Below are positions 27,984 through 40,789 of a stretch of 45,719 nucleotides of DNA, piece by piece. Both the position numbers and the translations under genes were made by a program. The notes beneath the pieces were generated by a model. That model made no database searches. It worked only from the letters and a program-made list of their open reading frames with translations, and was not told the origin of the DNA. Position 1 is the stretch's first letter; every line of letters starts with the position of its first letter. The DNA is from Desulfobulbaceae bacterium (GTDB lineage Bacteria; Desulfobacterota; Desulfobulbia; Desulfobulbales; SURF-16). The DNA lies in assembly GCA_020444175.1 (NCBI GenBank), contig JAHLLM010000043.1, positions 1 to 45,719 on the forward strand, written 5' to 3'.

Positions 27984-29198
27984 TTAAAGAGTATAGCCAA
28001 TCTCACTGTGCTGCGTAATATCAAGGCCCTGCACCTCGTCATCGGTGTTAACCCGCAAGCCAACGACAATATCAATTACCTTCAGGATTATAAATGTAAC
28101 GATCAACGAGTAGGCAATGGTAATACCGGCATCCATGGCCTGGATGGCAAACAGTTTCGGATTTCCAAAGAAAAGGCCATCAGCACCACCAGGATTAACG
28201 GCCGTAGAGGCAAAAAGTCCCGTGGCAAGTGCGCCCCACAACCCACCGACCCCATGGACACCGACCACGTCCAGCGAGTCATCATAACCAAGTTTTGCTT
28301 TGGCAATCACAGCTATATAACAGATCACGCCGGCCACCAGGCCAATAATGACTGCCGAAACAGGACCGACAAAACCGCAGCCCGGAGTAATGGCAACCAG
28401 ACCGGCAACAGCACCGGAGGCGGCACCGAGGGTGGTTGGTTTGCCCTGTATAACCCACTCAGCAATAATCCAGGAAAGAGCGGCAGCGCCGGCGGCAACC
28501 TGGGTGACAAAAAGGGCATTGGTTGCAATGCCGTCGGCAGCAAGGGCACTTCCTGCATTAAAACCGAACCAACCGAACCAGAGCATGCCTGCACCGAGGA
28601 CGGTCATGGAAACATTATGGGGATGGATGGCGTCTTTTCCCCAGCCTTTTCGTTTTCCAAGCATGAGCGCAGCCACCAGAGCAGCAGCACCGGAGTTAAT
28701 ATGGATAACAGTACCGCCGGCAAAATCCAGCCCGCCATGACCGCTGATCCAGCCACCGCCCCATACCCAGTGACAGACGGGGAAATAAACAAGGGTACTC
28801 CACAAAACAGCAAAGATAAGGAAAGCGGAAAATTTGATACGCTCAGCAAAGGCACCGGTAATCAGAGCCGGTGTAATAACGGCAAACATAAGCTGAAAGG
28901 CGCTGAAAAGAAGGTGGGGGATGGTATCACTGTAAGGTCCGGGTTCGAGACCGACGCCGGCAAGTCCGGCAAAATCAAGATTCCCGACAAAACCGCCAAC
29001 GTCAGGCCCAAAGGCTAGAGAATAACCATAGAGCACCCATACTATAGAAATAAGCCCCAGACAGATAAAACTTTGCAAAATTGTGCTCAGTACATTTTTT
29101 GAACGAACCATGCCTCCGTAAAAGAGAGCAAGGCCCGGGGTCATCAACATGACCATGGCAGTTGCTACCAGCATAAAAGCTGTATCACCAGTATTCAT
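27984..29198 (-). CDS. amt: Ammonium transporter
   Basis: This protein of about 404 residues has eleven predicted membrane segments of the Amt/Mep/Rh family. FYGGMVRSKNVLST, the pore region HWVWGGGWI, the twin histidines in VIHINSGAAAL and VVGVHGVGGLWG, and the cytoplasmic tail that docks PII proteins are visible. There is no signal peptide, unlike the second Amt at 30119. AGGAG lies at the correct distance from ATG 29198, so I preferred that start over the GTG at 29207. A strong sigma-54 promoter lies about 59 nt upstream, pointing to nitrogen-limited expression. It is convergent with the kinase gene (35-nt gap without a clear terminator). Confidence 0.96.
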   Translation of the reverse strand: MNTGDTAFMLVATAMVMLMTPGLALFYGGMVRSKNVLSTILQSFICLGLISIVWVLYGYSLAFGPDVGGFVGNLDFAGLAGVGLEPGPYSDTIPHLLFSAFQLMFAVITPALITGAFAERIKFSAFLIFAVLWSTLVYFPVCHWVWGGGWISGHGGLDFAGGTVIHINSGAAALVAALMLGKRKGWGKDAIHPHNVSMTVLGAGMLWFGWFGFNAGSALAADGIATNALFVTQVAAGAAALSWIIAEWVIQGKPTTLGAASGAVAGLVAITPGCGFVGPVSAVIIGLVAGVICYIAVIAKAKLGYDDSLDVVGVHGVGGLWGALATGLFASTAVNPGGADGLFFGNPKLFAIQAMDAGITIAYSLIVTFIILKVIDIVVGLRVNTDDEVQGLDITQHSEIGYTL

Positions 29199-29256
29199 TG
29201 CAATCACTCCTTTCGTTTTATTGAAATATTCAGTTTCACGTCACATGAGCATTTTA

Positions 29257-29272
29257 AGCAATAGGTGTGCCA
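29257..29272 (-). promoter_or_regulatory. Sigma-54 promoter of amt
   Basis: On the minus strand TGGCACACCTATTGCT matches the -24/-12 consensus TGGCAC-N5-TTGCW at every key base. It lies 59 nt before the amt start, leaving room for a short leader. An activator site was not identified with confidence. Confidence 0.85.
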
Positions 29273-29631
29273 ATAATCCCCCCACACACATATCCTACGC
29301 CAGCAAAGGGATTAGCTTCTATGAGCAATTCTCAGGATTAAATTTAATAACATTTTTGTAATATATTTATCCCCCTATTTTACAAAAAAGGACACCTTCG
29401 CAATGACAGCCAAGCAGCGCAAAAGCGAACAACCTCCTTCCTCTTTTCGCCTTTTCTCCACCTGAACCCCAAACAAAACAACAACGATACACTTTTGAAC
29501 ATTACAAAAATCAATATTTAACAAAAATGTTATAAATCTATTTTCACCGAACAAGGCTCCGCCGCCGTATATTTTTTTATATTCTAATAAAATTAGCAAC
29601 ATAGAGAAATTTATACTTCCCAAAATCCCTT

Positions 29632-29647
29632 TGGCACGCATTTAGCT
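29632..29647 (+). promoter_or_regulatory. Sigma-54 promoter of the glnB-amt-porin unit
   Basis: TGGCACGCATTTAGCT matches the sigma-54 consensus with GG and GC at the required spacing. The only departure is A for T in the TTGC part. It lies 49 nt before the glnB start. The remaining 29273-29631 between the two divergent promoters is AT-rich and has no supported gene; it presumably carries activator sites. Confidence 0.78.
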
Positions 29648-29671
29648 ATAATGAGAAACCAAAGAAATTAA

Positions 29672-30034
<363 letters not shown>

Positions 30035-30118
30035 CCGAAGATTACAAAAAGGAAGAAGCCGCTCAACTAAAAACAGCTTGAAAAAACAAGGGATAAATAA
30101 CATATAGAGGAATTAACC

Positions 30119-31432
30119 ATGAAAAAAATTATACTTACAACAGCTTTGCTAGCCATCCCGGCTCTGGCCTGGGGTGAAGGGGAAGCGCCAACCGCTTTAA
30201 GTAACGCCGACGCCATTGCGCTGGTTCAGGACCATGCAAATTACCTGTGGACACTTGTTGCCGCCGCCCTTGTTTTCTTCATGCAGGCGGGTTTTGCAAT
30301 GGTCGAATCAGGCTTTACCAGGGCAAAAAGCGCAGTCAACATTATGATGAAAAACATGATGGACTTCTCCATGGGTTCCATCGCCTTCTGGGCCATTGGT
30401 TTCGGTCTCATGTTCGGTGCTTCCAGCACCGGCTGGTTTGGCACAACAGACTTTTTTCTGAGCGGCTGGACCCCTGACGGCGACCCATGGGTCCTTGCCT
30501 TCTGGATGTTTCAGTGTGTTTTTGCCGGTACCGCAGCAACTATTGTATCCGGCGCCATGGCAGAAAGAACAAAATTCACCAGCTATCTCATATACAGCGC
30601 TTTCCTTTGCGCCATCATCTATCCGATCTTCGGCAGCTGGGCATGGGGCAGCCTGCTCAACGGTAACGGCTGGCTTGAAAAACTTGGTTTTATTGACTTT
30701 GCAGGCTCCACCGTTGTCCACTCAGTCGGCGGCTGGGCAGCCCTTGCCGGCGCTATTGTCCTTGGTCCCCGGATCGGCAAATACGGTCCTGCAGGTGAAG
30801 TTCGCGCCATCCCCGGCCACAACATCCCCATGGCCGCGCTCGGTGTCTTCATTCTCTGGCTTGGCTGGTTCGGTTTCAACCCCGGATCCACCACAACTGC
30901 GGACAAAAGCATTGCCATGATCTTTGTTAACACCAACCTGGCGGCCGCTGCAGGTGCAGTACTGGCCATGGTCACCTCTTGGGTTATGTTCAAAAAACCT
31001 GATGTGGGTATGACCTTAAACGGCGCCTTGGCAGGACTTGTCGGTATCACAGCAGGCTGCGCCAATGTCAGCCCGACAAGCTCAATCATCATCGGTGCCA
31101 TCGCAGGCGTCCTGGTTGTCCTTTCAGTTGTTACCATTGACAAAATGCATATTGACGATCCGGTCGGCGCTGTATCCGTACATGGCGTCTGTGGCGCCTG
31201 GGGCACCCTGGCAGCCGGACTCTTCAACATGGGCGGCACTACCATGAAAATTATGACCACACAGCTTATCGGAATCGGAGCAGCCTTTGTCTGGGCCTTT
31301 GGGGCTGCATTCATTCTCTTCAAGACCATTGACATAGTCGTCGGTCTTCGCGTATCCGAAGAAGAAGAAATGCAGGGCGTGGACATCTGCGAGCACGGAG
31401 CAAATGCCTATAACGATTTCCAGGTACACTAA
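30119..31432 (+). CDS. amt: Ammonium transporter with cleavable signal peptide
   Basis: This 437-residue AmtB-type channel begins with a signal peptide (MKKIILTTALLAIPALAWG), as in AmtB of enterobacteria. It then has ALVFFMQAGFAMVESGFTRAKSAVN, WAWGSLL, the twin-histidine sites STVVHSVGGWAALAG and VSVHGVCGAWGTLA, and the tail EEMQGVDICEHGANAY. It is cotranscribed with glnB, the usual PII-Amt pair. It is only distantly similar to the Amt at 27984, so the two are not a recent duplication. Confidence 0.97.
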   Translation: MKKIILTTALLAIPALAWGEGEAPTALSNADAIALVQDHANYLWTLVAAALVFFMQAGFAMVESGFTRAKSAVNIMMKNMMDFSMGSIAFWAIGFGLMFGASSTGWFGTTDFFLSGWTPDGDPWVLAFWMFQCVFAGTAATIVSGAMAERTKFTSYLIYSAFLCAIIYPIFGSWAWGSLLNGNGWLEKLGFIDFAGSTVVHSVGGWAALAGAIVLGPRIGKYGPAGEVRAIPGHNIPMAALGVFILWLGWFGFNPGSTTTADKSIAMIFVNTNLAAAAGAVLAMVTSWVMFKKPDVGMTLNGALAGLVGITAGCANVSPTSSIIIGAIAGVLVVLSVVTIDKMHIDDPVGAVSVHGVCGAWGTLAAGLFNMGGTTMKIMTTQLIGIGAAFVWAFGAAFILFKTIDIVVGLRVSEEEEMQGVDICEHGANAYNDFQVH

Positions 31433-31440
31433 TTTACCAA

Positions 31441-31462
31441 GCTCCGGGCATCAGCCCGGAGC
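31441..31462 (+). repeat. GC-rich hairpin between amt and porin
   Basis: GCTCCGGGC and GCCCGGAGC form a perfect 9-bp stem with an ATCA loop, 8 nt after the amt stop. No T tract follows, so it more likely moderates read-through or protects the upstream mRNA end than terminates fully. Confidence 0.75.
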
Positions 31463-31505
31463 GCAACATCAACATTCAATTATCATTTCAAAGGGAGAAA
31501 GAGAA

Positions 31506-32306
31506 ATGAAAAAAGGAATCAAAAAAATCGGCGGAATAGCCCTTGCGGGCGTTTTATTAACAGGTATTGCAGCATCATCTGCCTGGGCCGAAGAAGAAAA
31601 ACCAACAGCAGATCTGAGCGTTTCATTTTTAAGCAAATACGTATGGCGCGGCTGGGAGTTCAGCAAAGACAGCATGGTTATCGAACCTTCCATGACTGTC
31701 GGCTACAAAGGATTTGCCTTTAACATCTGGGGCAACCTTGATACCGATGAGCATGAATTTCTTGGCGGAGTAGACGAAGATTCAAGCAGCTGGAATGAAA
31801 CCGACCTCACCCTCTCCTATGACGCATCCTGCGATTTTGCTGATTACGGAGTAGGCCTCATCTACTATGCCGTGGATGGCTTTGAGGACACCCAGGAGCT
31901 TTATGTTACCGCCAGCCTGAAAACGATTCTGGCCCCCACTCTGACCATCTATCGCGACTACGATGTTGCCGACAGCTGGTACGTAACCTTCGACATCTCT
32001 CATTCATTTGCCATCAACGAGACAATGAGTCTGGATCTCGGAGCCAAGGTTTCCTACTATGACTATGACGACGAAGACGACCTTGCTGATCCGGATGATG
32101 CGAGTGATGCCTACAGCGCCTTCCATGACGGTGTCATCTCAGCTTCTATGACATTCCCCATCGGAGACTACATGTCACTTACTCCGGAACTTTACTACTC
32201 ATTTCCTCTGAGCAGCGAAGCTGAGGATGTTATTGAAGCAGGAAGCGCCAACGGAGACGACAGCGACTTCGTTTACGGTGGCCTCACTTTCAGTATGAGC
32301 TTCTAG
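31506..32306 (+). CDS. Outer-membrane beta-barrel protein, TorF-family putative porin
   Basis: This 266-residue exported protein has a signal peptide (MKKGIKKIGGIALAGVLLTGIAASSAWA). Alternating hydrophobic/aromatic strands follow (DLSVSFLSKYVWRGWEFSKD, FAFNIWGNLDT, LTLSYDA, GVGLIYYAVDGF and so on), ending in a strand with terminal phenylalanine (YGGLTFSMSF), the usual BAM recognition signal. Acidic loops are prominent. The YVWRGWEFS opening is typical of the TorF/TIGR02001 group. I chose ATG 31506 after GGGAG; the longer open frame from 31404 would run through the hairpin. Its place 73 nt after amt suggests it serves passage of nitrogen compounds through the outer membrane, which is inference. 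Confidence 0.85.
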   Translation: MKKGIKKIGGIALAGVLLTGIAASSAWAEEEKPTADLSVSFLSKYVWRGWEFSKDSMVIEPSMTVGYKGFAFNIWGNLDTDEHEFLGGVDEDSSSWNETDLTLSYDASCDFADYGVGLIYYAVDGFEDTQELYVTASLKTILAPTLTIYRDYDVADSWYVTFDISHSFAINETMSLDLGAKVSYYDYDDEDDLADPDDASDAYSAFHDGVISASMTFPIGDYMSLTPELYYSFPLSSEAEDVIEAGSANGDDSDFVYGGLTFSMSF

Positions 32307-32338
32307 GTTTTTTTTGCAGCACTGTTGTTCCACCCCGG

Positions 32339-32385
32339 CGGCACAGAGCCTTGTCTCCCCCACTCAACTCTCTGTGCCGTTTTTT
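32339..32385 (+). terminator. Rho-independent terminator after the porin gene
   Basis: CGGCACAGAG (32339-32348) pairs with CTCTGTGCCG (32370-32379), immediately followed by six T. It ends the glnB-amt-porin unit. Confidence 0.88.
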
Positions 32386-32566
32386 ATAGTAAAAACATTC
32401 AGTTAACAATTTTACCCGCTGTTTTTCCTCAAAACACACAACTGATGAAACCACAGGAAGGCACAACGCAACCCACCCGCCCTTGTAATGCCAACAAGAC
32501 ACATGAATGCCGGCGGCGGTTAAACATGTTTTACAAACCCGTCAAACTTTGACTCCCCATTAAGCC

Positions 32567-33307
32567 ATGAAAAAAAATATTGCTGTTTTCCAACACGTCA
32601 GCTGGGAAGGCCCGGGTCAATTTCTTCTTGATGCAGCAGATCGCTGCAACACGCAACTTAATATCATCAAGGTCTGGCAGGAGGAGATTCCGGACCTTTC
32701 AGCATATGACGGACTTATTGTTCTCGGCGGCAGCCCCAATATAGACCAGGAAGACGAATATCCCTTTCTGCGCAACGAGAAACAGGCAATCCGCTCCTGG
32801 CTGGCAATCGACAAACCGTGCCTCGGCATCTGCCTTGGCCATCAACTTGTAGCGGACGCCCTGGGTGCCCGGATTGCCCCGAATTTTTGCTACAGTTTCG
32901 GTTTTACCGAGGGACACCTGACACATGACGGGCGAAACCATCCTGTTTTCAAGGGATCAGACATTCGTTTTCCTCTTTACAAGTGGCACGGATATGCCGT
33001 AATCCCCCCAGTTCCAAGTCATTTCCACATCCTGGTAACCTCTACGGAATGCCAGGTTGAATCGTTTACAGTAAAAAATCGTGAGCACATTATCGGTGTT
33101 CAGTTTGACAACCACGCCGCATCACCCAGTGATGTTGTCGGGTGGCTCAAAGAAAACGCAGACTGGCTCGCATCTGTTGAAGAAAATTTTGATCCCCAAA
33201 AAATAATTGCCCAAGCTGAAAGACATCAGGCAAAGACAAAAGAACATTTTCTACAATTTTTTGAAAATTTTATTAATATGACGGATAGAAACAGCTTCAT
33301 CCACTAA
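32567..33307 (+). CDS. Class I glutamine amidotransferase-like protein with an altered triad
   Basis: This 246-residue protein has the class I GATase fold. GLIVLGGSPN, the nucleophile motif LGICLGHQLVADALGA and the WHGYAV strand align with GuaA-like stand-alone amidotransferases. The third segment, which should read GVQFHPE with the catalytic His and Glu, reads GVQFDNH, so both partners of the cysteine are replaced. A C-terminal tail of about 50 residues (DPQKIIAQAERHQAKTKEHFLQFF) is helical. With no synthetase partner adjacent, it may be a binding protein or use different chemistry. It lies between the porin and the nifV operon on the same strand, so a nitrogen link is plausible only by position. 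Confidence 0.85.
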   Translation: MKKNIAVFQHVSWEGPGQFLLDAADRCNTQLNIIKVWQEEIPDLSAYDGLIVLGGSPNIDQEDEYPFLRNEKQAIRSWLAIDKPCLGICLGHQLVADALGARIAPNFCYSFGFTEGHLTHDGRNHPVFKGSDIRFPLYKWHGYAVIPPVPSHFHILVTSTECQVESFTVKNREHIIGVQFDNHAASPSDVVGWLKENADWLASVEENFDPQKIIAQAERHQAKTKEHFLQFFENFINMTDRNSFIH

Positions 33308-33405
33308 TTACTTTTTAAAAAAATCTTAACCGAAAAAAAATTTACTAACCCGCATTTAGCATATCGAAATTTAATACAATTTTACATTTTTCAGCACGCG
33401 ATAAA

Positions 33406-34713
33406 ATGAATCAAAAACATCAAGAAAACATATTCCTCCTTCTCGACCAGGATGGACCTTTTGCCACATCCGGCTCCCCTTTGCCCGAAAGCCCCTTTTC
33501 AAAGGAAGCAAAAAAAATGGCAAAGCTTCTTGGCCGCGGCGAAGAGGCAACAAAACATCGTATTATTCGTAATCAGATTTTCGAGTTTCTTGATGTCAAC
33601 TCATTTGCTGAAATAAAAAAACTCCTCACCGACCGTAAACGGCGTGAGGAAATTGACCGAAGGGCTTATGCTCTGCTGGGCAACATGTTCGGCATAGACG
33701 GCAACGAAAGGGAAATTGTCTCCAGAGTAAACAACTATTCACGCACCGCCGACGGCGTGATACGCTACCTGCGCAATAAAGTCCTGAACAATTACAGCTC
33801 TCACATCGAGATGACCAATGAAATCGATGCATTGAGCAGCCCTGCCGAACTCCTGCTTATTGTTTTTGACGACAATTACCACATAAAGGCCCGCTTTGAA
33901 GCAAAACGCAAACTGATTCTCATGAACCTGGCAGGGTCAATTGACCAGAGGGAGCGAGAAACCAATATTGAAAACAAGTTTACAAATTTTCTCAGCTTTT
34001 TAAACGATCATGTCTGGAGCAAGAGAACAAAAATAGGGGAACTGGAAGTCGTCTATCTCCTCAGCAGCCACGAGAAAGAGAACTTCACCTGCACCAAATT
34101 TGCAATTATCAGCAGAGACAAGGCTGAAAAAATAAAACTTAAACCCGGCCAGAAACTGACACTTATCAAGCGCAGGCGCTTTTCCGCCAATGGCCGTGAA
34201 ATTCCAATTTATGTATCAATCCGCAAAAAACCGCCCGAGGCCAAGGTCCTGAAACTGCTGCGCAAGGGCGAAACAAACCCTGCTGTTGCGGTTGATGACG
34301 AACTGGGACTCATGGGCGTCCTTGAGTCCCCCCTTGACATAAAAGTCTTCCAGCGCCATTTGACGAGCAGCGCCATTAAAGCCGACTCATTCATGGCCCT
34401 GGAAGATATTTCCGACTCGCTGACCGGCGGCAAAAGAGTCACCAAAAACACCGGCAGCTCATCCAAGACCTCCATGTTCAAGTTTTTTGCACGTTTAGGG
34501 GGCATGAGGGTGGAATTTATCGTCCACACCTATGAAAGTTACCTGAACTACATCTACCAGAGGGATGTATCCCACGATGAATACGAGGTAAAAAGAATTT
34601 TTGATACAGGAGTTGCCGAGCTTCTCTTCCCCCAAAGCATTTACTTTCTCGACATGAAGAAATTAAGAGACCTGCAGCTTCGCTGGTTTCGGCGCCAGAT
34701 TGAGGAATTTTAA
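33406..34713 (+). CDS. Conserved-looking cytoplasmic protein of unknown function
   Basis: I do not recognise this 435-residue protein. It has no signal peptide or membrane segment. The N-terminal 130 residues are helical and charged (ATKHRIIRNQIFEFLDVNSF, EIDRRAYALLGNMFGIDG). The middle (about 140-300) mixes helices with strands such as LEVVYLLSSHEKENFTCTKFAIIS and a lysine-rich KLTLIKRRRFS. The C-terminal part ends with an aromatic, acidic block (YESYLNYIYQRDVSHDEYEVKRIFDTG). Coding quality (even composition, good codons, long frame) argues that it is real. It is followed after 1 nt by a membrane protein gene and then nifV, so the three form an operon. A regulatory or cofactor-related task in nitrogen fixation is possible. 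Confidence 0.7.
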   Translation: MNQKHQENIFLLLDQDGPFATSGSPLPESPFSKEAKKMAKLLGRGEEATKHRIIRNQIFEFLDVNSFAEIKKLLTDRKRREEIDRRAYALLGNMFGIDGNEREIVSRVNNYSRTADGVIRYLRNKVLNNYSSHIEMTNEIDALSSPAELLLIVFDDNYHIKARFEAKRKLILMNLAGSIDQRERETNIENKFTNFLSFLNDHVWSKRTKIGELEVVYLLSSHEKENFTCTKFAIISRDKAEKIKLKPGQKLTLIKRRRFSANGREIPIYVSIRKKPPEAKVLKLLRKGETNPAVAVDDELGLMGVLESPLDIKVFQRHLTSSAIKADSFMALEDISDSLTGGKRVTKNTGSSSKTSMFKFFARLGGMRVEFIVHTYESYLNYIYQRDVSHDEYEVKRIFDTGVAELLFPQSIYFLDMKKLRDLQLRWFRRQIEEF

Positions 34714-34714
34714 C

Positions 34715-35095
34715 ATGAAAAATTCGCCACACACACTGCCGGCGGCAGTTATCAATACTTTTTTTGTCGTCGGACTCATATCCGCCCTTTCCTTCCGCAG
34801 CCTTATGGCTTTAAAAGACTTGCAGCCGGAGATGTTCCGCCTCGTCTGGTATGTGGGACTGATCGGCTATCTCCTTTTCTTTGCCTTCCGGTATACCATT
34901 TCCATTAAGCGCAAAAGGGCAATTGCAGATTACAACCTCATACCCAAACTGCAAGAGGGGGCGCCTCTTTCTGCCGATGACCGCCAGGTGGTGAGCTACC
35001 TGCTTTCGTCTCTGCAGAAATCACGGGAAAACCTGAATTACCTCTTTATATTTGCAACCTCAGGTCTGGCTATTGTGCTTGACATCCTCTTATAG
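34715..35095 (+). CDS. Small membrane protein of unknown function, coupled to nifV
   Basis: This protein of 126 residues has three hydrophobic segments: AAVINTFFVVGLISALSF (about 10-27), LVWYVGLIGYLLFFAFRYTI (about 43-62) and YLFIFATSGLAIVLDILL (C-terminal). A basic, soluble helical stretch separates the second and third (KRKRAIADYNLIPKLQEG...SLQKSREN). The ATG at 34715 follows the stop of the preceding gene by one base; earlier in-frame codons lie inside that gene. It ends 12 nt before nifV. No family is recognised. Confidence 0.75.
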   Translation: MKNSPHTLPAAVINTFFVVGLISALSFRSLMALKDLQPEMFRLVWYVGLIGYLLFFAFRYTISIKRKRAIADYNLIPKLQEGAPLSADDRQVVSYLLSSLQKSRENLNYLFIFATSGLAIVLDILL

Positions 35096-35107
35096 GAGAG
35101 TTGCGCC

Positions 35108-36211
35108 ATGAAAGGACTCATCGACAGCACCCTGCGGGAAGGAGAGCAGACACCCGGCGTTTTCTTTTCTCTGCCCGACAAAATTAAAATTGCCACCCTG
35201 CTGAGCAAAGTCGGCATCGAGGAAATCGAGCTGGGCATAGCCACACCATATAACACCGATCTCCCCCAACTCATCAAATCCTGCCGCTCACTGCCGGCAC
35301 CGCCACGCCTTGCCCTCTGGTGCAGATGCACAGCACCCGACATCATGCACGCCGCAGCACTTGGGCCTGACGTGCTTTCGCTTTCCATCCCGGCCTCGGA
35401 TCTTCACATTATCCAAAAGCTGGAGCGATCCCGAACCTGGGCGGCAAACACACTGTCAGAGTCCGTCAGACTGGCGATCTCTTTAGGAATAAAAAACATT
35501 TCCGTCGGCCTGGAAGACGCCACCCGCTCAGACAGCAGCTTTCTGACTAAACTCATCAAAACGGCTGAAAATGCCGGAGCCCGGAGAATCAGGCTTGCCG
35601 ACACGGTGGGAATTGCCAGCCCATCGACAACAAGCCGCCTGATTTCAGAAGCCAAGTCAAGCTGCTCCCTCGAGATAGGCATTCACTCCCACAACGACTT
35701 CGGCATGGCCACAGCGAACAGCATTGCCGCCCTGGAAGCCGGCGCACACTGGGCCGACGCTACGGTTCTCGGTATAGGGGAGCGCGCAGGCAACAGTCGG
35801 CTTGAAGAGATGGCGGGCTTTCTCAGCCTGAACCACAAGCGCCCCTACAAGATAGAACACCTGCGCGCCCTCTGTCACACTGCGGCACAGGCCGCAAATC
35901 ATCCCATTGCAGACAATCACCCCCTGGTAGGAGATGCCATCTTCACCTGTGAAACCGGCCTGCACCTGCAGGGACTTTTCAAAAACCCCGCAACATACGA
36001 GCCCTATGCCCCGGAACTGGTTGGAGGATCACGAAAACTTCTGATTGGAGCAAAAACAGGAAAAAAAGCGCTGATTGAGCACATCAAGGCCATGGGGCGA
36101 TCTCTCCCTGAAGAGAAAACAAAACAGGCAATATCCATTGTCCGCAGTCTGGCCCTCAAAAACAAAAGGGCGTTGAACGATGAGGAGATACTGGCCATAG
36201 TCAATTGCTGA
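35108..36211 (+). CDS. nifV: Homocitrate synthase (NifV-like)
   Basis: This 367-residue DRE-TIM metallolyase has the N-terminal signature DSTLREGEQTPGVFFS and the downstream motifs LEDATRSD, RLADTVGIASPSTTS, the metal ligands of GIHSHNDFGMATANS and a GIGERAGNSRLEE block. Its C-terminal part is short (FTCETGLHLQGLFKNPATYEPY), as in NifV, and lacks the leucine-regulatory domain of isopropylmalate synthase. NifV condenses acetyl-CoA and 2-oxoglutarate to homocitrate, the organic ligand of FeMo-co. Its position 3 kb from the nif genes supports this role over citramalate or lysine-pathway relatives. It is preceded by GGAGAG. Confidence 0.9.
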   Translation: MKGLIDSTLREGEQTPGVFFSLPDKIKIATLLSKVGIEEIELGIATPYNTDLPQLIKSCRSLPAPPRLALWCRCTAPDIMHAAALGPDVLSLSIPASDLHIIQKLERSRTWAANTLSESVRLAISLGIKNISVGLEDATRSDSSFLTKLIKTAENAGARRIRLADTVGIASPSTTSRLISEAKSSCSLEIGIHSHNDFGMATANSIAALEAGAHWADATVLGIGERAGNSRLEEMAGFLSLNHKRPYKIEHLRALCHTAAQAANHPIADNHPLVGDAIFTCETGLHLQGLFKNPATYEPYAPELVGGSRKLLIGAKTGKKALIEHIKAMGRSLPEEKTKQAISIVRSLALKNKRALNDEEILAIVNC

Positions 36212-36258
36212 GATGAACAGCCTGTCGCAATCTCCTCCAAAGCTGACCTGCCCTCTAA

Positions 36259-36398
36259 CAGGCTGTTGAAAAATGTAGCGAGCGTAGCGGAGACAAGGAA
36301 AAATGAGGCGAAAAAGCACAGTTTACATGGAGTAAATGAGCATTTTGAGCCGAATTTTGACGCAGTATCAGCAAGCGCAGTAGTTTTTCAACAGCCTG
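36259..36398. repeat. MITE-like element with 15-bp terminal inverted repeats
   Basis: The termini caggctgttgaaaaa (36259-36273) and its exact complement (36384-36398) enclose 110 nt of non-coding sequence with words such as agcgagcgtagcggag and gagcattttgagccgaattttgac. The CAGGCTGTTGAAAAA end is a known style of intergenic repeat in Desulfobacterota. It lies just past nifV, where it would form a long hairpin in the transcript. Confidence 0.8.
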
Positions 36399-36410
36399 CT
36401 AAACTTCCAG

Positions 36411-36458
36411 TAAAAAAATAATAAAAACGCCGGAGCACCTTTGCAGGTTCCTCCGGCG
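36411..36458 (-). terminator. Rho-independent terminator for the small minus-strand genes
   Basis: CGCCGGAG (36428-36435) pairs with CTCCGGCG (36451-36458), with further inner pairing CACCT/AGGT. On the minus strand it is followed by a T-rich tract (36411-36427). It lies about 100 nt after the zinc-ribbon gene. Confidence 0.8.
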
Positions 36459-36556
36459 AAAACCTCGTAAAAACGGGTTAAAGACGAGTTCAAAGAACGC
36501 TTTCACAGAGACATCCTCGCGTATTACCGACGAGCAACTACCCCACGGCAAAACAC

Positions 36557-36751
36557 TCAGTGACACTCTTTGCCCTTTGAAATTTCATCACATTTCGGAC
36601 AATTTTTCTTGTCGCTTTCTGTCAACTTAACATATACTTCCCGACCGCACCTGCCGCAGAGCACATGTTCTTCTTCATTCGGGATAAAATCATGAAGAAA
36701 ATCATCCTGCAGCAACTCCTGAAAGCATTCGGGACATTGCACAGTAGGCAT
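36557..36751 (-). CDS. Small zinc-ribbon protein
   Basis: This 64-residue protein has three C-x2-C pairs: CPEC near residue 6, CGRC near 32 and CPKC near 52. It ends KGKECH. This arrangement should bind one or two zinc ions (or possibly iron) as a rubredoxin-like or zinc-ribbon knuckle. The ATG at 36751 is preceded by GGAGG. It lies between nifV and nifA with its own terminator, and downstream of another small gene on the same strand. Function is unknown. Confidence 0.7.
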   Translation of the reverse strand: MPTVQCPECFQELLQDDFLHDFIPNEEEHVLCGRCGREVYVKLTESDKKNCPKCDEISKGKECH

Positions 36752-36885
36752 AACTTCCCTCCTTATTGTTTGACGGCTTCATATTTATACTCCGTGATTG
36801 CCCCCCCAAACCGCTGTTGACACGAATACAACTTATCTCAATCAGGTTGGCGAATGGTCAGCTCCAGAGCTTTTTTACGAATCCA

Positions 36886-37182
36886 TCAATGTTTGATGTT
36901 TTTATATTGAAAATATATATCGTGTATCCTGCTCCGCAGATCTCTTATCCTGCCGGAGTCCTCCTTGTTGACCCAACGAGGCTCACTGATTGAATAAACC
37001 AATTTAGCCAATTCATCCAGAACCCCTTCCACAGAAGCACACCACTCATCAGTACAAATTTCTATCATTTCACCGGCCTCATCAATATCTTTTTCCAGAA
37101 GGCCTATGGACTTTTCCAGATTTGCCATGAATTCATGGTGAGCCAGGGCCATGCCTTGCTCCATTTCCATTTGTCTTTGCAT
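36886..37182 (-). CDS. Small helical protein of unknown function next to nifA
   Basis: This protein of 98 residues starts MQRQMEMEQGMALAHHEF. A perfect AAGGAGG lies 8 nt before ATG 37182, so that start is preferred over the GTG at 37191. It is acidic and almost entirely helical (FMANLEKSIGLLEKDIDEAGEMIEICTDEWCASVEGVLDELAKLVYS), with two cysteines, C47 and C52 (C-x4-C), and a basic tail. No family is recognised. It lies 120 nt downstream of nifA on the same strand and may be cotranscribed with it. Confidence 0.65.
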   Translation of the reverse strand: MQRQMEMEQGMALAHHEFMANLEKSIGLLEKDIDEAGEMIEICTDEWCASVEGVLDELAKLVYSISEPRWVNKEDSGRIRDLRSRIHDIYFQYKNIKH

Positions 37183-37302
37183 ATTGCACACCTCCTTCTA
37201 CCGATGGAACGCTTATATAATAACAGTTACCATTATTTGCAGCCTGTCAACTCGTAATCCCACAGGCAGAAAAGATATGTATGCGCAAAATCAAATATAC
37301 TG

Positions 37303-38907
37303 TCACGAATATGAATCCGAACGTTGCAGGTTATATTTCTTTACCTTGTAACCTATCTGCCGCTGCGTCAAGCCAAGCTCCCTGGCGGCCCTGGCCTGAA
37401 CCCATCCATTGCGTTTAAGAGCAGCTTCAACCTCTTCTTTTTCCATTTCCTTGAGCACGCGGCTACGCCTGTTTACAATCGGAACATCCGGCACCACGGA
37501 AGGGCCGGGAGGCGAAGGCTTCCGTCCGCTTTCGCTCCGAGCGGAAAACATATGGTCAGGCAGATCAGCAACCTGCAGCCAGCCGCTGTCACTGAGAATA
37601 ACCAGGCGCTCCATCAAATTCTGCATCTCCCTTACATTTCCAGGCCAGTCATAGGCAGTAAGAAAATCAAGAAATTCCCTGGTCAGCTTCACCTTCTTCT
37701 CATTTCTCTTATTGCTTGAGCGCAGAAAATGATCAAGCAGCAGCGGTATATCGTCACGCCTCTCACGAACCGGAGGCAAAACAAGAGGCACAACATTGAG
37801 ACGGTAAAAAAGATCATTTCGAAATGTACCGGAAGCCACAGCATCCTCAAGACTGACATTGGTTGCAGCAATAATCCGAACATCAACCTTAATTGTCTTG
37901 GTCCCTCCAAGTCTCTCGAACTGTCGTTCCTGAAGCACGCGGAGCAGTTTTGCCTGCAGAGGAAGCGGCAACTCTCCTATTTCGTCGAGAAAAAGCGTGC
38001 CGCCGTCCGCCAACTCAAAACGACCCGGCTTTGCGGCCTGGGCACCAGTGAAAGCCCCTTTTTCATGGCCAAGCAGCTCACTCTCAAGAAGATTCTCAGG
38101 CAAGGCGGCACAGTTTACCTTTATAAAGGTCTTATCGCTGCGCTTACTGGCCTGATGAATGGCCCTCGCCACCAGCTCCTTACCCGTTCCGGATTCCCCC
38201 AGAAGAAGAACCGTTGCCCTGCTTGGCGCAACTTTTTCAATACTCCAGAATATTGCCTGCATGGGCTTACTCTGCCCAATCATATAATGACGGTTATATC
38301 GGCCATGCAACTCCGCCTTCAGAGTTTTATTTTCTTCGACAAGAACCGCCTCCTTTTGAATGATTGCCCGATGCAGATTGAGAAACTGAGCGATCAGCGT
38401 TGCCAGAACACTCAGAAACCGGATGTCTTCTTCAAAGGAGACATCTTTCCCGAAAAGCCGGTCAACACTCAACACGCCCACCGGCTTCTGGGCGAGGATG
38501 ACCGGGACCCCGATAAAAGAAAGTCTTTCCTTTTTGATCTCTGAACGGGACTTTGTCCTGTTCAGAAAAAGAGGTTCACTGTGAACGTCAGGCACAACAA
38601 AAGGTGAACACGTCTGGAAAATCTGGCCGCTCACACCTTCATCGAGGTTATACACTCCCCGCTGCTCCTCTTTGACCGTCAGCCCGTAAGAGGCACGAAT
38701 GGAAAGATGCTCTCCCGTCCTGTCAACAAGAACAAGAGTGGCCCTTTCCATCCGAAGTATGTCATGGAGAATGCGAAGAATTTTAGACAGCGTTGTATCC
38801 AGGTGAACAGCAGAGCCTATAAGCTTGCATATCTCGCTTAATGCCTGCAGCTCCAAAGCTTCTATGGTTGGCTTACTGGAATGCAGCAGCGCTCCTGTAG
38901 TTGTCAT
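37303..38907 (-). CDS. nifA: Nif-specific sigma-54 activator NifA
   Basis: This 534-residue protein has an N-terminal GAF domain (about 25-175), an AAA+ sigma-54 activation domain (about 205-435) and a C-terminal Fis-type HTH ([34 protein letters not shown]). The AAA+ domain has Walker [10 protein letters not shown], the sigma-contact loop [20 protein letters not shown] and the arginine-finger region. GGGAG precedes the start. Only three cysteines are present, and the oxygen-sensing cysteine cluster between AAA+ and HTH of the rhizobial NifA type is absent, so it resembles the Klebsiella/Azotobacter type. nifL is not adjacent, so the GAF domain itself may carry the nitrogen or redox signal. 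It is divergent from nifH across 606 nt. Confidence 0.95.
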
Positions 38908-38973
38908 GAAAGTACTCCCTTATTAATTTAAAAAATAGCAATGGGACCTAAAGCCTTTGATTCCTTAATTAAA

Positions 38974-38989
38974 TGCAAAATACATTCCA
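38974..38989 (-). promoter_or_regulatory. Possible sigma-54 promoter of nifA
   Basis: On the minus strand TGGAATGTATTTTGCA has GG and GC at the correct spacing and a perfect TTGCA -12 part, but a weak -24 part (AAT instead of CAC). It lies about 67 nt before nifA. If real, nifA would be activated by another NtrC-type protein or by itself. Confidence 0.45.
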
Positions 38990-39193
38990 CCACCCAAAAG
39001 CGACAGCATTAACACCTCAACAACCTGATATAAAAGAAGAAAATAAAGCAACTTGCGACATTCACCCCTTTAAGCAAAAATATAAAATTACAAAAAAGTA
39101 ATTTATAGCATCCCGGCACACTACTTTTCTGTCACATAAATTTCCAGCGGAAGGCGTGCATCGTCCTACAAAAATGAAAAAACTCTTCTTTTT

Positions 39194-39209
39194 TGTCGCC
39201 TTTTCGACA
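39194..39209. promoter_or_regulatory. NifA upstream activating sequence
   Basis: TGTCGCCTTTTCGACA fits TGT-N10-ACA exactly. It is embedded in a longer perfect inverted repeat, TTTTGTCG / CGACAAAA. It lies 100 nt upstream of the nifH -24 element, the usual distance, and about 205 nt from the putative nifA promoter, so it may serve both. The rest of 38908-39513 is AT-rich with no supported gene; open frames there on the minus strand overlap these control sites. Confidence 0.82.
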
Positions 39210-39308
39210 AAACAACAACGTACCATCTCTTTTTTGTAGCCCCGACAATCTCCCCACTCCCCCACACAACAAATTGATATAACACACATTTAAAACATTT
39301 ATTCACTT

Positions 39309-39324
39309 TGGCACACCTTTTGTA
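39309..39324 (+). promoter_or_regulatory. Sigma-54 promoter of nifH
   Basis: TGGCACACCTTTTGTA matches the -24 part exactly and the -12 part except T for C in TTGC. It lies 190 nt before the nifH ATG, giving an unusually long leader of about 175 nt. No better site is closer to the gene. Confidence 0.75.
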
Positions 39325-39468
39325 ACTAGAGAAATCAAACGCACAAACTTGAACGCCATCAAAACCGAGAACAGAAAATGTGGCAACACGAGCCAAACAA
39401 GAACGAGCCATTGTCTCAAAAAAGAAAACTGACAAAATTGTAACCAAAAACACATCGTCAATGAATGA

Positions 39469-40344
<876 letters not shown>

Positions 40345-40354
40345 ACCTCACTTC

Positions 40355-40379
40355 AGGACTGAGGACTGAGGACTGAGGA
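40355..40379 (+). repeat. 7-bp tandem repeat between nifH and nifI1
   Basis: AGGACTG is repeated three times (40355-40375) and followed by a partial fourth unit (AGGA). It starts 11 nt after the nifH stop, in the 88-nt gap. Copy number could vary by slippage; it does not change any reading frame. Confidence 0.85.
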
Positions 40380-40432
40380 AATATTACATTTTTTTATGAC
40401 TATCAGGAAATAACAACTTTGGAGAATATATT

Positions 40433-40789
40433 ATGTTGACAATGATCAGAGCAATTATCAGGCCGGAGAAGGCGGACTCCATTCTTGCCGCACTTATGGA
40501 TGCAGGCTTCCCTGCGGTAACCAAGTACTCTGTGGCCGGCCGCGGTAAACAACGCGGTATTAAAATCGGCGAGGTTACCTACGATGAAATCCCCAAAACC
40601 ATGCTCATGAGCGTGGTCAAAGCCGAGGAAAAGGATTTTGTCATCGATACCATTATGTCAAACGCAAGGTCCGGAGACAAAGGCGCCTTTGGTGATGGTA
40701 AGATTTTCGTCACTGACGTGGAAGAATCCTACACCATCAGTTCAGGAGTCAAGGAAAATGGCGAACCAGCTGAGGAGGCTGCGGCATGA
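40433..40789 (+). CDS. nifI1: PII-family nitrogenase regulator NifI1
   Basis: This 118-residue PII-like protein (MLTMIRAIIRPEKADSILAALMDAGFPAVTKYSV) has the B-loop SGDKGAFGDGKIFV. Its T-loop (GKQRGIKIGEVTYDEIPKTML) differs from GlnB and lacks the uridylylated tyrosine context. NifI1 and NifI2 form a complex that inhibits dinitrogenase by direct contact when 2-oxoglutarate falls (ammonium switch-off in methanogens). The place between nifH and nifD is diagnostic. Its stop overlaps the nifI2 start by 4 nt. Confidence 0.95.
   Translation: MLTMIRAIIRPEKADSILAALMDAGFPAVTKYSVAGRGKQRGIKIGEVTYDEIPKTMLMSVVKAEEKDFVIDTIMSNARSGDKGAFGDGKIFVTDVEESYTISSGVKENGEPAEEAAA

Follow-up and report, generated by a model that had tools for sequence, protein, structure and literature searches.

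The 45,719-nucleotide stretch of DNA analyzed here (hereafter the window) belongs to contig JAHLLM010000043.1 of the Desulfobulbaceae bacterium assembly GCA_020444175.1 and carries, just ahead of a gene for a NifV-like homocitrate synthase, two adjacent genes whose products are termed A435, a soluble protein of 435 amino acids, and TM126, a protein of 126 amino acids with three hydrophobic segments. Of the two, A435 alone is the finding, and the pair is no general module. The reading favored here, with a probability of about one half, is that A435 would be an enzyme that shares the RelA/SpoT (alarmone synthetase) fold in divergent form and stands under nitrogen control. In mechanistic terms, it would probably use ATP as the donor of a pyrophosphate or other group, with the acceptor bound unlike the GTP of Rel; it would be made within the sigma-54/PII nitrogen regulon, and its product would report, or act on, nitrogen shortage or N2 fixation. 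The fold itself is very probable on the predicted model, a role in nitrogen metabolism is rather likely, and enzymatic activity is somewhat favored on the modeled active site. The active enzyme, its product, a transcription that follows nitrogen and a responder are what we infer for A435, a protein for which no paper naming it or its gene order was found in the open-licence PMC literature.

Predicted fold and candidate active site of A435

Sequence profiles place A435 in no curated family. In Pfam searches with A435 and its relatives, matches were sporadic, each confined to one or two of the proteins (best E 0.013), and no family was returned for A435 itself; an NCBIfam scan, including the GlnD model TIGR01693, likewise gave none, and comparisons with PHROGs (E 0.35), PADLOC (no match) and the PDB sequences (nothing credible) were no more informative. 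For TM126, the only Pfam match was to DUF4931_C, at E 0.058 and below the cut-off, with no match to a curated nif family. The original prediction that neither protein resembles a known nif accessory protein is borne out in this respect, as no curated family matches either of them above its cut-off.

Structure comparison, on the other hand, points consistently in one direction. An AlphaFold2 model of A435 built with 41 homologues has a mean predicted local distance difference test score (pLDDT) of 86.9 and a predicted template modeling score of 0.85, with a helical N-terminal part followed by a C-terminal α/β domain. In a Foldseek search of the PDB, RelA/SpoT proteins, CapRel or small alarmone synthetases (SAS) fill the first 30 rows and account for 33 of the first 34, including row 24, which we take to be of the alarmone synthetase type; the best match has E 2.7e-3 and a probability of 1.00. 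VIA-align similarly ranks structures of the RelA/SpoT kind in rows 1-28, with Z 11.1 for both Bacillus subtilis Rel (8acu_B; 132 residues, 3.0 Å) and SAS2 (6fgk_A; 153 residues, 3.8 Å), the matches covering A435 residues ~173-435. Folds of the polymerase-β type rank next, at Z up to 6.7, the value at which the first families other than RelA/SpoT appear. Among the viral proteins of BFVD, phage RelA/SpoT proteins occupy rows 2, 4 and 5 with a probability of 1.00, behind a first row that carries no name. When folded alone, the first 206 residues (pLDDT 82.3) found no fold match above Z 3.9; this includes the N-terminal HD hydrolase domain that was checked for, although the absence of such a row is weak as an exclusion.

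Comparison with the synthetase domains of RelA/SpoT homologues (RSH) and SAS (RelP/SAS2, 6ewz and 6fgk; B. subtilis Rel, 8acu) shows that the predicted fold of A435 and the order of its strands and helices are the same as theirs. Going by threading, the shared features would extend to an R-x-K-x7-K motif, an aspartate ahead of the central strand, a glutamate on the last strand and a histidine about 20 residues further on. In Rel, as described in the available sections of PMC7983052 and PMC13299517, the catalytic D264 lies on a mobile loop and E323 on a strand, the adenine is held by R241 and R269, pppGpp is bound by a set of residues that includes K243, S247 and K251, and Y308 stacks on the guanine. 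Upon threading, A435 places R273-x-K275-x3-A279-x3-K283 at the matching strand end and helix of the Rel ATP site. D297 and D298 precede a strand rather than lying on it, E370 sits on the last strand, and H390 follows twenty residues later. Residue conservation was counted over the 151 full-length A435 copies, all of them distinct, two further copies being too short (L184 at a contig end and the remnant L202). R273, K275, K283, D298, E370, H374 and H390 are invariant in all 151, as are G350 and S351 in the loop 338-357, which reads NTGSSSKT in the window. A search pattern of the RSH type, RxK-x7-K...D...E-x3-[RH]...H, matched 136/136 A435 proteins, 22/28 Rel-like proteins, 0/2 other RSH and 1/1461 other proteins from the fetched loci.

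Several observations count against this assignment. The RelA_SpoT model PF04607 misses A435 in its own genome even at E 10 while finding three other loci there, and hhalign fails to connect A435 either with Rel alignments or with two RSH proteins taken individually (probability 0.1-0.3), the A435 profile being shallow, with an effective number of sequences of about 2. No Foldseek match falls under E 0.001 in either the PDB or BFVD. The pairing of A435 and Rel residues is itself a threading on secondary structure, in which R269, S247, Y308 and the SxH of Rel find no clear counterpart. R269 threads onto M303 (methionine in 144 and leucine in 7 of the 151 copies), and the position threading onto the ATP-site serine, A279, is alanine in 144, threonine in 6 and aspartate in one. 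The guanine-binding NxYxSLH, with the syn3 tyrosine and the SxH, is likewise absent from A435, as judged by threading, by which an equivalent may escape notice. Further differences from RSH and SAS are the lack of sequence similarity, the replacement of R327 by His374, and the helical N-terminal part of ~200 residues that matches nothing. Finally, the search pattern had been relaxed, and its limits chosen, with the A435 sequence already known; it therefore supports but does not prove the residue pairing. Because the RelA_SpoT domain test failed by sequence, A435 is not filed as an RSH; on the predicted fold and the conserved residues, it most likely constitutes a separate family that works like an RSH synthetase.

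The same residues bear on whether A435 is active at all. It could instead be a catalytically dead Rel-like fold that binds ATP or an alarmone and acts as a sensor, its partner being perhaps PII, NifA or the amidotransferase described below, an alternative that would account for the missing counterparts of the guanine-stacking tyrosine, the adenine-sandwiching R269 and the ATP-site serine in the threaded alignment. Dead enzymes, however, seldom retain catalytic residues, and the A435 residues that pair by threading with both catalytic carboxylates and with the arginine and lysines of the ATP site are invariant throughout, which makes a dead sensor rather improbable.

If A435 is indeed an active enzyme, its departures from Rel may concern the acceptor. 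In the available sections of PMC12226406, Apk2, a (p)ppApp synthetase from MuF toxins, has RYT in syn2 where RSH have AVR, and YH instead of IR in syn4; altering these syn motifs in Apk2 left its acceptor unswitched. To the extent of that description, the Apk2-type adenosine 3'-pyrophosphokinases and A435 share RSH-type syn motifs, the lack of the syn2 arginine and a syn4 histidine in place of arginine (YH in Apk2, V373-H374 in A435), but the syn3 GxN of Apk2 could not be recognized in A435. Given this resemblance in syn2 and syn4, it is no more than a fair guess that the acceptor of A435 is of the adenosine type or some other. Their settings differ too: no toxin context was seen for A435 (no PADLOC match), which is spread through a single order and in many loci has nitrogen genes as neighbors.

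Distribution of A435 and its co-variation with nifD

The Desulfobulbales, the order to which the window belongs, are sulfate-reducing bacteria that fix N2 in sediments. A435 was detected in 12 of 395 genomes sampled across the phylum, all 12 lying within this order, where it is present in 173/257 genomes (118/148 of good quality) and 57/69 genera; the records bearing it include Desulfobulbaceae, Desulfurivibrio, Desulfobulbus and Ca. Desulfatifera. Outside the order, the A435 profile gave only short matches in 2/395 phylum genomes (E 0.014 and 0.317), which were taken as chance, and a scan for close relatives only, in one genome each of 84,980 species, left A435 seen in Desulfobulbales only, no search of whole genomes having been made beyond the phylum.

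Using TIGR01282 at E up to 0.001, nifD was found in 168/257 genomes of the order, 143 of them above the cut-off. Both genes occur in 138 genomes, A435 only in 35, nifD only in 30 and neither in 54. As draft incompleteness and kinship could each fake a link between the two, the comparison was restricted to good genomes and stratified by genus. In the 148 good genomes (94 with both, 24 with A435 only, 14 with nifD only, 16 with neither), the association has a Fisher p of 9e-4, and the within-genus Cochran-Mantel-Haenszel test gives z 4.2 and p 2.4e-5 from six informative genera. None of 20,000 within-genus permutations was as concordant as the observed distribution, also when remnants were scored as absent; this result serves as a guide only because genomes of one genus are not independent. 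Among good genomes, genus g4 has six with both genes, two with A435 only, none with nifD only and six with neither, and genus g8 has seven, one, one and two, respectively. The tie to nitrogen fixation that was originally predicted for A435 thus gains support from its co-occurrence with nifD within genera, and from the neighbors discussed below.

Other genomes weaken this link. Thirty of the 257 carry nifD without A435; in particular, all 13 genomes of g270 (5) and g271 (8), G459-G471, have nifD and no A435, three of these being single-contig assemblies. Conversely, the single-contig genome G505 (97% complete) carries A435 with nifD undetected. The class with A435 only is, however, an upper bound, since G484 was scored there yet on its contig L009 A435 is accompanied by nifV, nifA and a partial nifH. 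A separate case is G218 (1.7 Mb, completeness given as 100%), in which nifD is undetected and which retains only about the last 81 residues of A435, a remnant that, by its sequence, looks like the result of decay.

Gene neighborhoods and proposed nitrogen control

Neighbors were surveyed at 154 loci drawn from genomes with a listed A435 position, and A435 was found in 153 of these, L103 (G453) being dropped; G631 is counted twice, and L013-L020, L022 and L023, taken as already surveyed contigs, and the fragment L024 were left out. Flanks of 5 kb or more on each side are available at 83 loci, and 48 of these have glnB, amt, a nif gene or a gene for a glutamine amidotransferase no further than 5 kb from A435. 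The count becomes 46/83 without nifA-like hits, which may be other sigma-54 activators, and 32/83 if only nifV, nifH, nifI, nifD and nifK are considered. As a rough control, a nitrogen gene stands near 1/32 RSH loci as against 69/127 A435 loci within 1.4 kb, with the proviso that the RSH flanks are shorter, as those loci are centered on a domain inside a ~2.2-kb gene.

Several different nitrogen arrangements recur: A435 may follow the amidotransferase or nifA, stand on either side of nifV, or lie beside amt and glnB. Relatives of the glutamine amidotransferase lie directly upstream in 45/153 loci; NifV is directly downstream in 23, downstream behind TM126 in 8 and directly upstream in 9; and NifA is directly upstream in 13. 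Altogether, 70/153 loci have an amidotransferase, NifV or NifA in one such direct position. In L065, L067 and L068, from genomes that belong to one family and have no detected nifD, the row glnB-amt-porin-amidotransferase-A435 is retained without nifV, so that the ammonium and PII genes may be older partners of A435 than nifV. At other loci (e.g., g278, g282, g284), the neighbors are lineage-specific and unrelated. The porin-like gene (weak Gcw_chp match) between amt and the amidotransferase gene also still flanks A435 at L089, L129, L130 and L196, where no other nitrogen genes lie within 5 kb.

Could A435 simply be an ordinary order-specific gene without nitrogen function, its nif neighborhood being gene order inherited in some families? 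No nitrogen gene is present within 5 kb at 35/83 well-flanked loci, a point that also tells against the nitrogen reading, and A435 persists where nifD was not detected, as in G505. Positions of both genes are listed for 107 genomes, 31 with both on the same contig (25 within 50 kb) and 76 with the two on different contigs; the distance exceeds 1 Mb in G575, G514, G515 and G516, and in G195 it is 2.7 Mb in linear terms or ~0.4 Mb if the contig is circular. As against this, the presence of A435 follows nifD inside genera, and the nitrogen arrangements that recur are of several kinds, making an ordinary gene an unlikely explanation.

Transcription was approached through the sigma-54 consensus TGGCAC-N5-TTGCW. 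In the window, matches with up to two mismatches are at chance level (27 vs 28.6 expected), and the three sites with at most one mismatch, at 29257-29272 (-), 29632-29647 (+) and 39309-39324 (+), stand ahead of an amt gene, glnB and nifH, respectively. Across the A435 rows, glnB lies upstream on the same strand at 37/153 loci, and 18 of these 37 glnB genes have a site with at most one mismatch ahead of them, as compared with 0.3 expected from shuffles, two rows misjudged at contig ends (L082, L098) being scored as misses. On account of the site at the head of the glnB rows, a transcript under nitrogen control likely reaches A435 in them, as far as sequence can tell. A435 itself has no such site within 300 nt upstream at any of 149 loci (0.55 expected), an observation that does not favor direct control, and searches by consensus returned NifA sites, sigma-70 promoters and terminators at frequencies close to chance.

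The frequent proximity to glnB raises a further alternative, i.e., that A435 belongs to the wider nucleotidyltransferase superfamily and takes the place of GlnD in modifying PII or another nitrogen protein. The uridylyltransferase GlnD is a nucleotidyltransferase-type enzyme acting on PII, and the gene of its target, glnB, often neighbors A435; moreover, the polymerase-β-type folds rank next after the Rel-type ones, and in single-contig G195, which has A435, GlnD is matched only weakly and in part (E 2.6e-13). Yet A435 has no match to GlnD, which is a separate gene above its curated cut-off in 21/24 genomes of the same group, two of the other three being incomplete drafts with partial matches. 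A protein with a RelA_SpoT domain is above cut-off in 24/24, and strong (E <1e-30) in 23. Hence, A435 seems to replace neither, and replacement of GlnD in particular is disfavored. With Rel-type structures ranking clearly higher and D297/D298 placed before the strand and not on it, a PII-modifying role is quite improbable. The genome of the window itself encodes a normal Rel (C54) as well as a 377-residue protein (L205, C20) and a ~760-residue protein (L206, C85) with weak RelA_SpoT domains of 47 bits each.

There is precedent for coupling between nitrogen and alarmones. According to the available sections of PMC4066584, NtrC and sigma-54 switch on relA in E. coli under nitrogen starvation, making it, like A435 as proposed here, a Rel-type gene under nitrogen-starvation control; relA is nonetheless a long RSH with a sigma-54 promoter of its own, whereas A435 is at most behind the glnB promoter. 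Similarly, the accessible text of PMC8381380 reports relA raised in diazotrophic Klebsiella oxytoca, and that of PMC4848567 reports that in Caulobacter a shortage of glutamine raises (p)ppGpp via PTS-Ntr and SpoT. In the E. coli and Caulobacter cases, so far as these sources (PMC4066584, PMC4848567) describe them, the coupling runs through the general Rel/SpoT enzyme. If the alarmone synthetase-like reading of A435 is correct, this separate Rel-like enzyme, a companion of nifD and of glnB/amt, would represent a dedicated nitrogen branch of alarmone signaling. A more specific proposal, speculative and on balance unlikely, is that the Desulfobulbales use A435 to produce a dedicated signal of nitrogen status, a non-canonical alarmone such as adenosine-based (pp)pApp or some other pyrophosphorylated metabolite, possibly with the adjoining amidotransferase as glutamine sensor; this signal would contribute to the timing of nitrogenase synthesis or activity. 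What was formerly an unnamed protein now has specific residues as targets for mutation and a well-defined assay.

TM126, NifV and further features of the window

The layout originally described for the locus is correct to the base, including the lengths and positions of the two genes, the gaps of 1 nt between A435 and TM126 and 12 nt between TM126 and the NifV-like gene, and the three segments of TM126 (residues ~4-36, ~39-65 and ~106-126). All three genes are on the + strand; GAGG lies 10-13 nt 5' of the TM126 ATG and AGGAG 10-14 nt 5' of the nifV ATG, and A435 has no hydrophobic segment above the threshold used. Co-transcription of the row from A435 through TM126 to nifV would be consistent with this packing. 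Both A435 and TM126 are, by the measure of their sequence relatives, real genes, given the 151 distinct full-length copies of the former and the relatives of the latter in 52/257 genomes of the order (by profile search, one at E 0.0097 only). Coordinates are collected in the table.

Table. Features of the A435 locus, in coordinates of the window
Feature	Position	Strand	Basis
A435: helical N-terminal part ~1-204 and C-terminal RelA/SpoT-synthetase-like α/β domain ~205-435 (predicted); stop TAA	33406..34713	+	predicted model, order-wide family
R273-x-K275-x7-K283 codons, threading onto the Rel ATP-site RxK...K (R241, K243, K251 of RelSeq)	34222..34254	+	threading, conservation
D298 codon, threading onto the catalytic D264 of RelSeq, in the loop before a β-strand	34297..34299	+	threading
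E370-H374 codons, threading onto E323...R327 of RelSeq (syn4)	34513..34527	+	threading; R327 numbered by counting from E323
TM126, three hydrophobic segments; start ATG at 34715	34715..35095	+	open reading frame, profile search
NifV-like homocitrate synthase	35108..36211	+	TIGR02660, 362.8 bits, below cut-off 462.9
Class-I glutamine amidotransferase, upstream of A435	32567..33307	+	Pfam PF00117
Porin-like protein, same row	31404..32306	+	weak Gcw_chp match, 16.6 bits, below cut-off 24
Amt-type ammonium transporter	30119..31432	+	open reading frame, recurring position; presumed name, by recognition
GlnB/PII protein, head of row	29696..30034	+	open reading frame, recurring position; presumed name, by recognition
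Sigma-54-like site ahead of glnB, 1 mismatch	29632..29647	+	consensus scan

That A435 and TM126 form a pair associated with nif holds for the lineage of the window, where nifD was detected in 9/11 genomes with the two genes adjacent and NifV comes next in 8 of these 11 loci. The order A435-TM126-NifV occurs in only 8/153 A435 loci, the window included, and is therefore a local arrangement. As a general membrane-linked module, the pair does not stand: among the positions listed, TM126 adjoins A435 in 11 of its 52 genomes, and at the 12 other TM126 loci that were read the neighbors recur among close relatives only, with 3/12 beside glnB/amt or nifA/nifH. The notion of a fixed A435-TM126 pair was accordingly rejected, and the best reading of TM126 is that of a lineage-local passenger or accessory and not a required partner of A435.

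These counts also bear on the idea that A435, TM126 and NifV make up a membrane-linked module for homocitrate supply, as the tight gaps in the window, the recurrence of the same order and the presence of nifD in most genomes with the adjacent pair might suggest. Besides the scattered occurrence of TM126, NifV follows A435 without TM126 in more loci (23) than with it and precedes A435 in others (9), NifV is within 5 kb of A435 in only 44/153 loci, and 35/257 genomes have A435 without detected nifD, so that a homocitrate role is very improbable. A435 is thus found mostly in nifD carriers (138/173) and mostly not beside nifV, and the two associations that had been foreseen, with diazotrophs and with nifV, part ways. 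With regard to NifV itself, the protein of the window scores below the TIGR02660 cut-off and just 2/257 genomes of the order have any match above it; annotation by TIGR02660 would therefore miss this NifV-like protein.

Downstream of the NifV-like gene, a nifA-type gene on the opposite strand is followed by nifH, nifI1, nifI2, nifD and nifK; apart from NifV, of these nitrogen genes in the window nifD is named by family search, and glnB, amt, the nifA-type gene, nifH, nifI1, nifI2 and nifK are what we take them to be by recognition of their sequences. An Rfam scan of 28000-40500 gave no match at gathering scores. Just 3' of nifV, at 36256-36401, lies an element of ~147 bp with 18-nt inverted ends, which has 48 matches in its own genome, 25 of them spanning at least 140 of 151 bases; by its copy number and inverted ends, it looks like a miniature transposable element.

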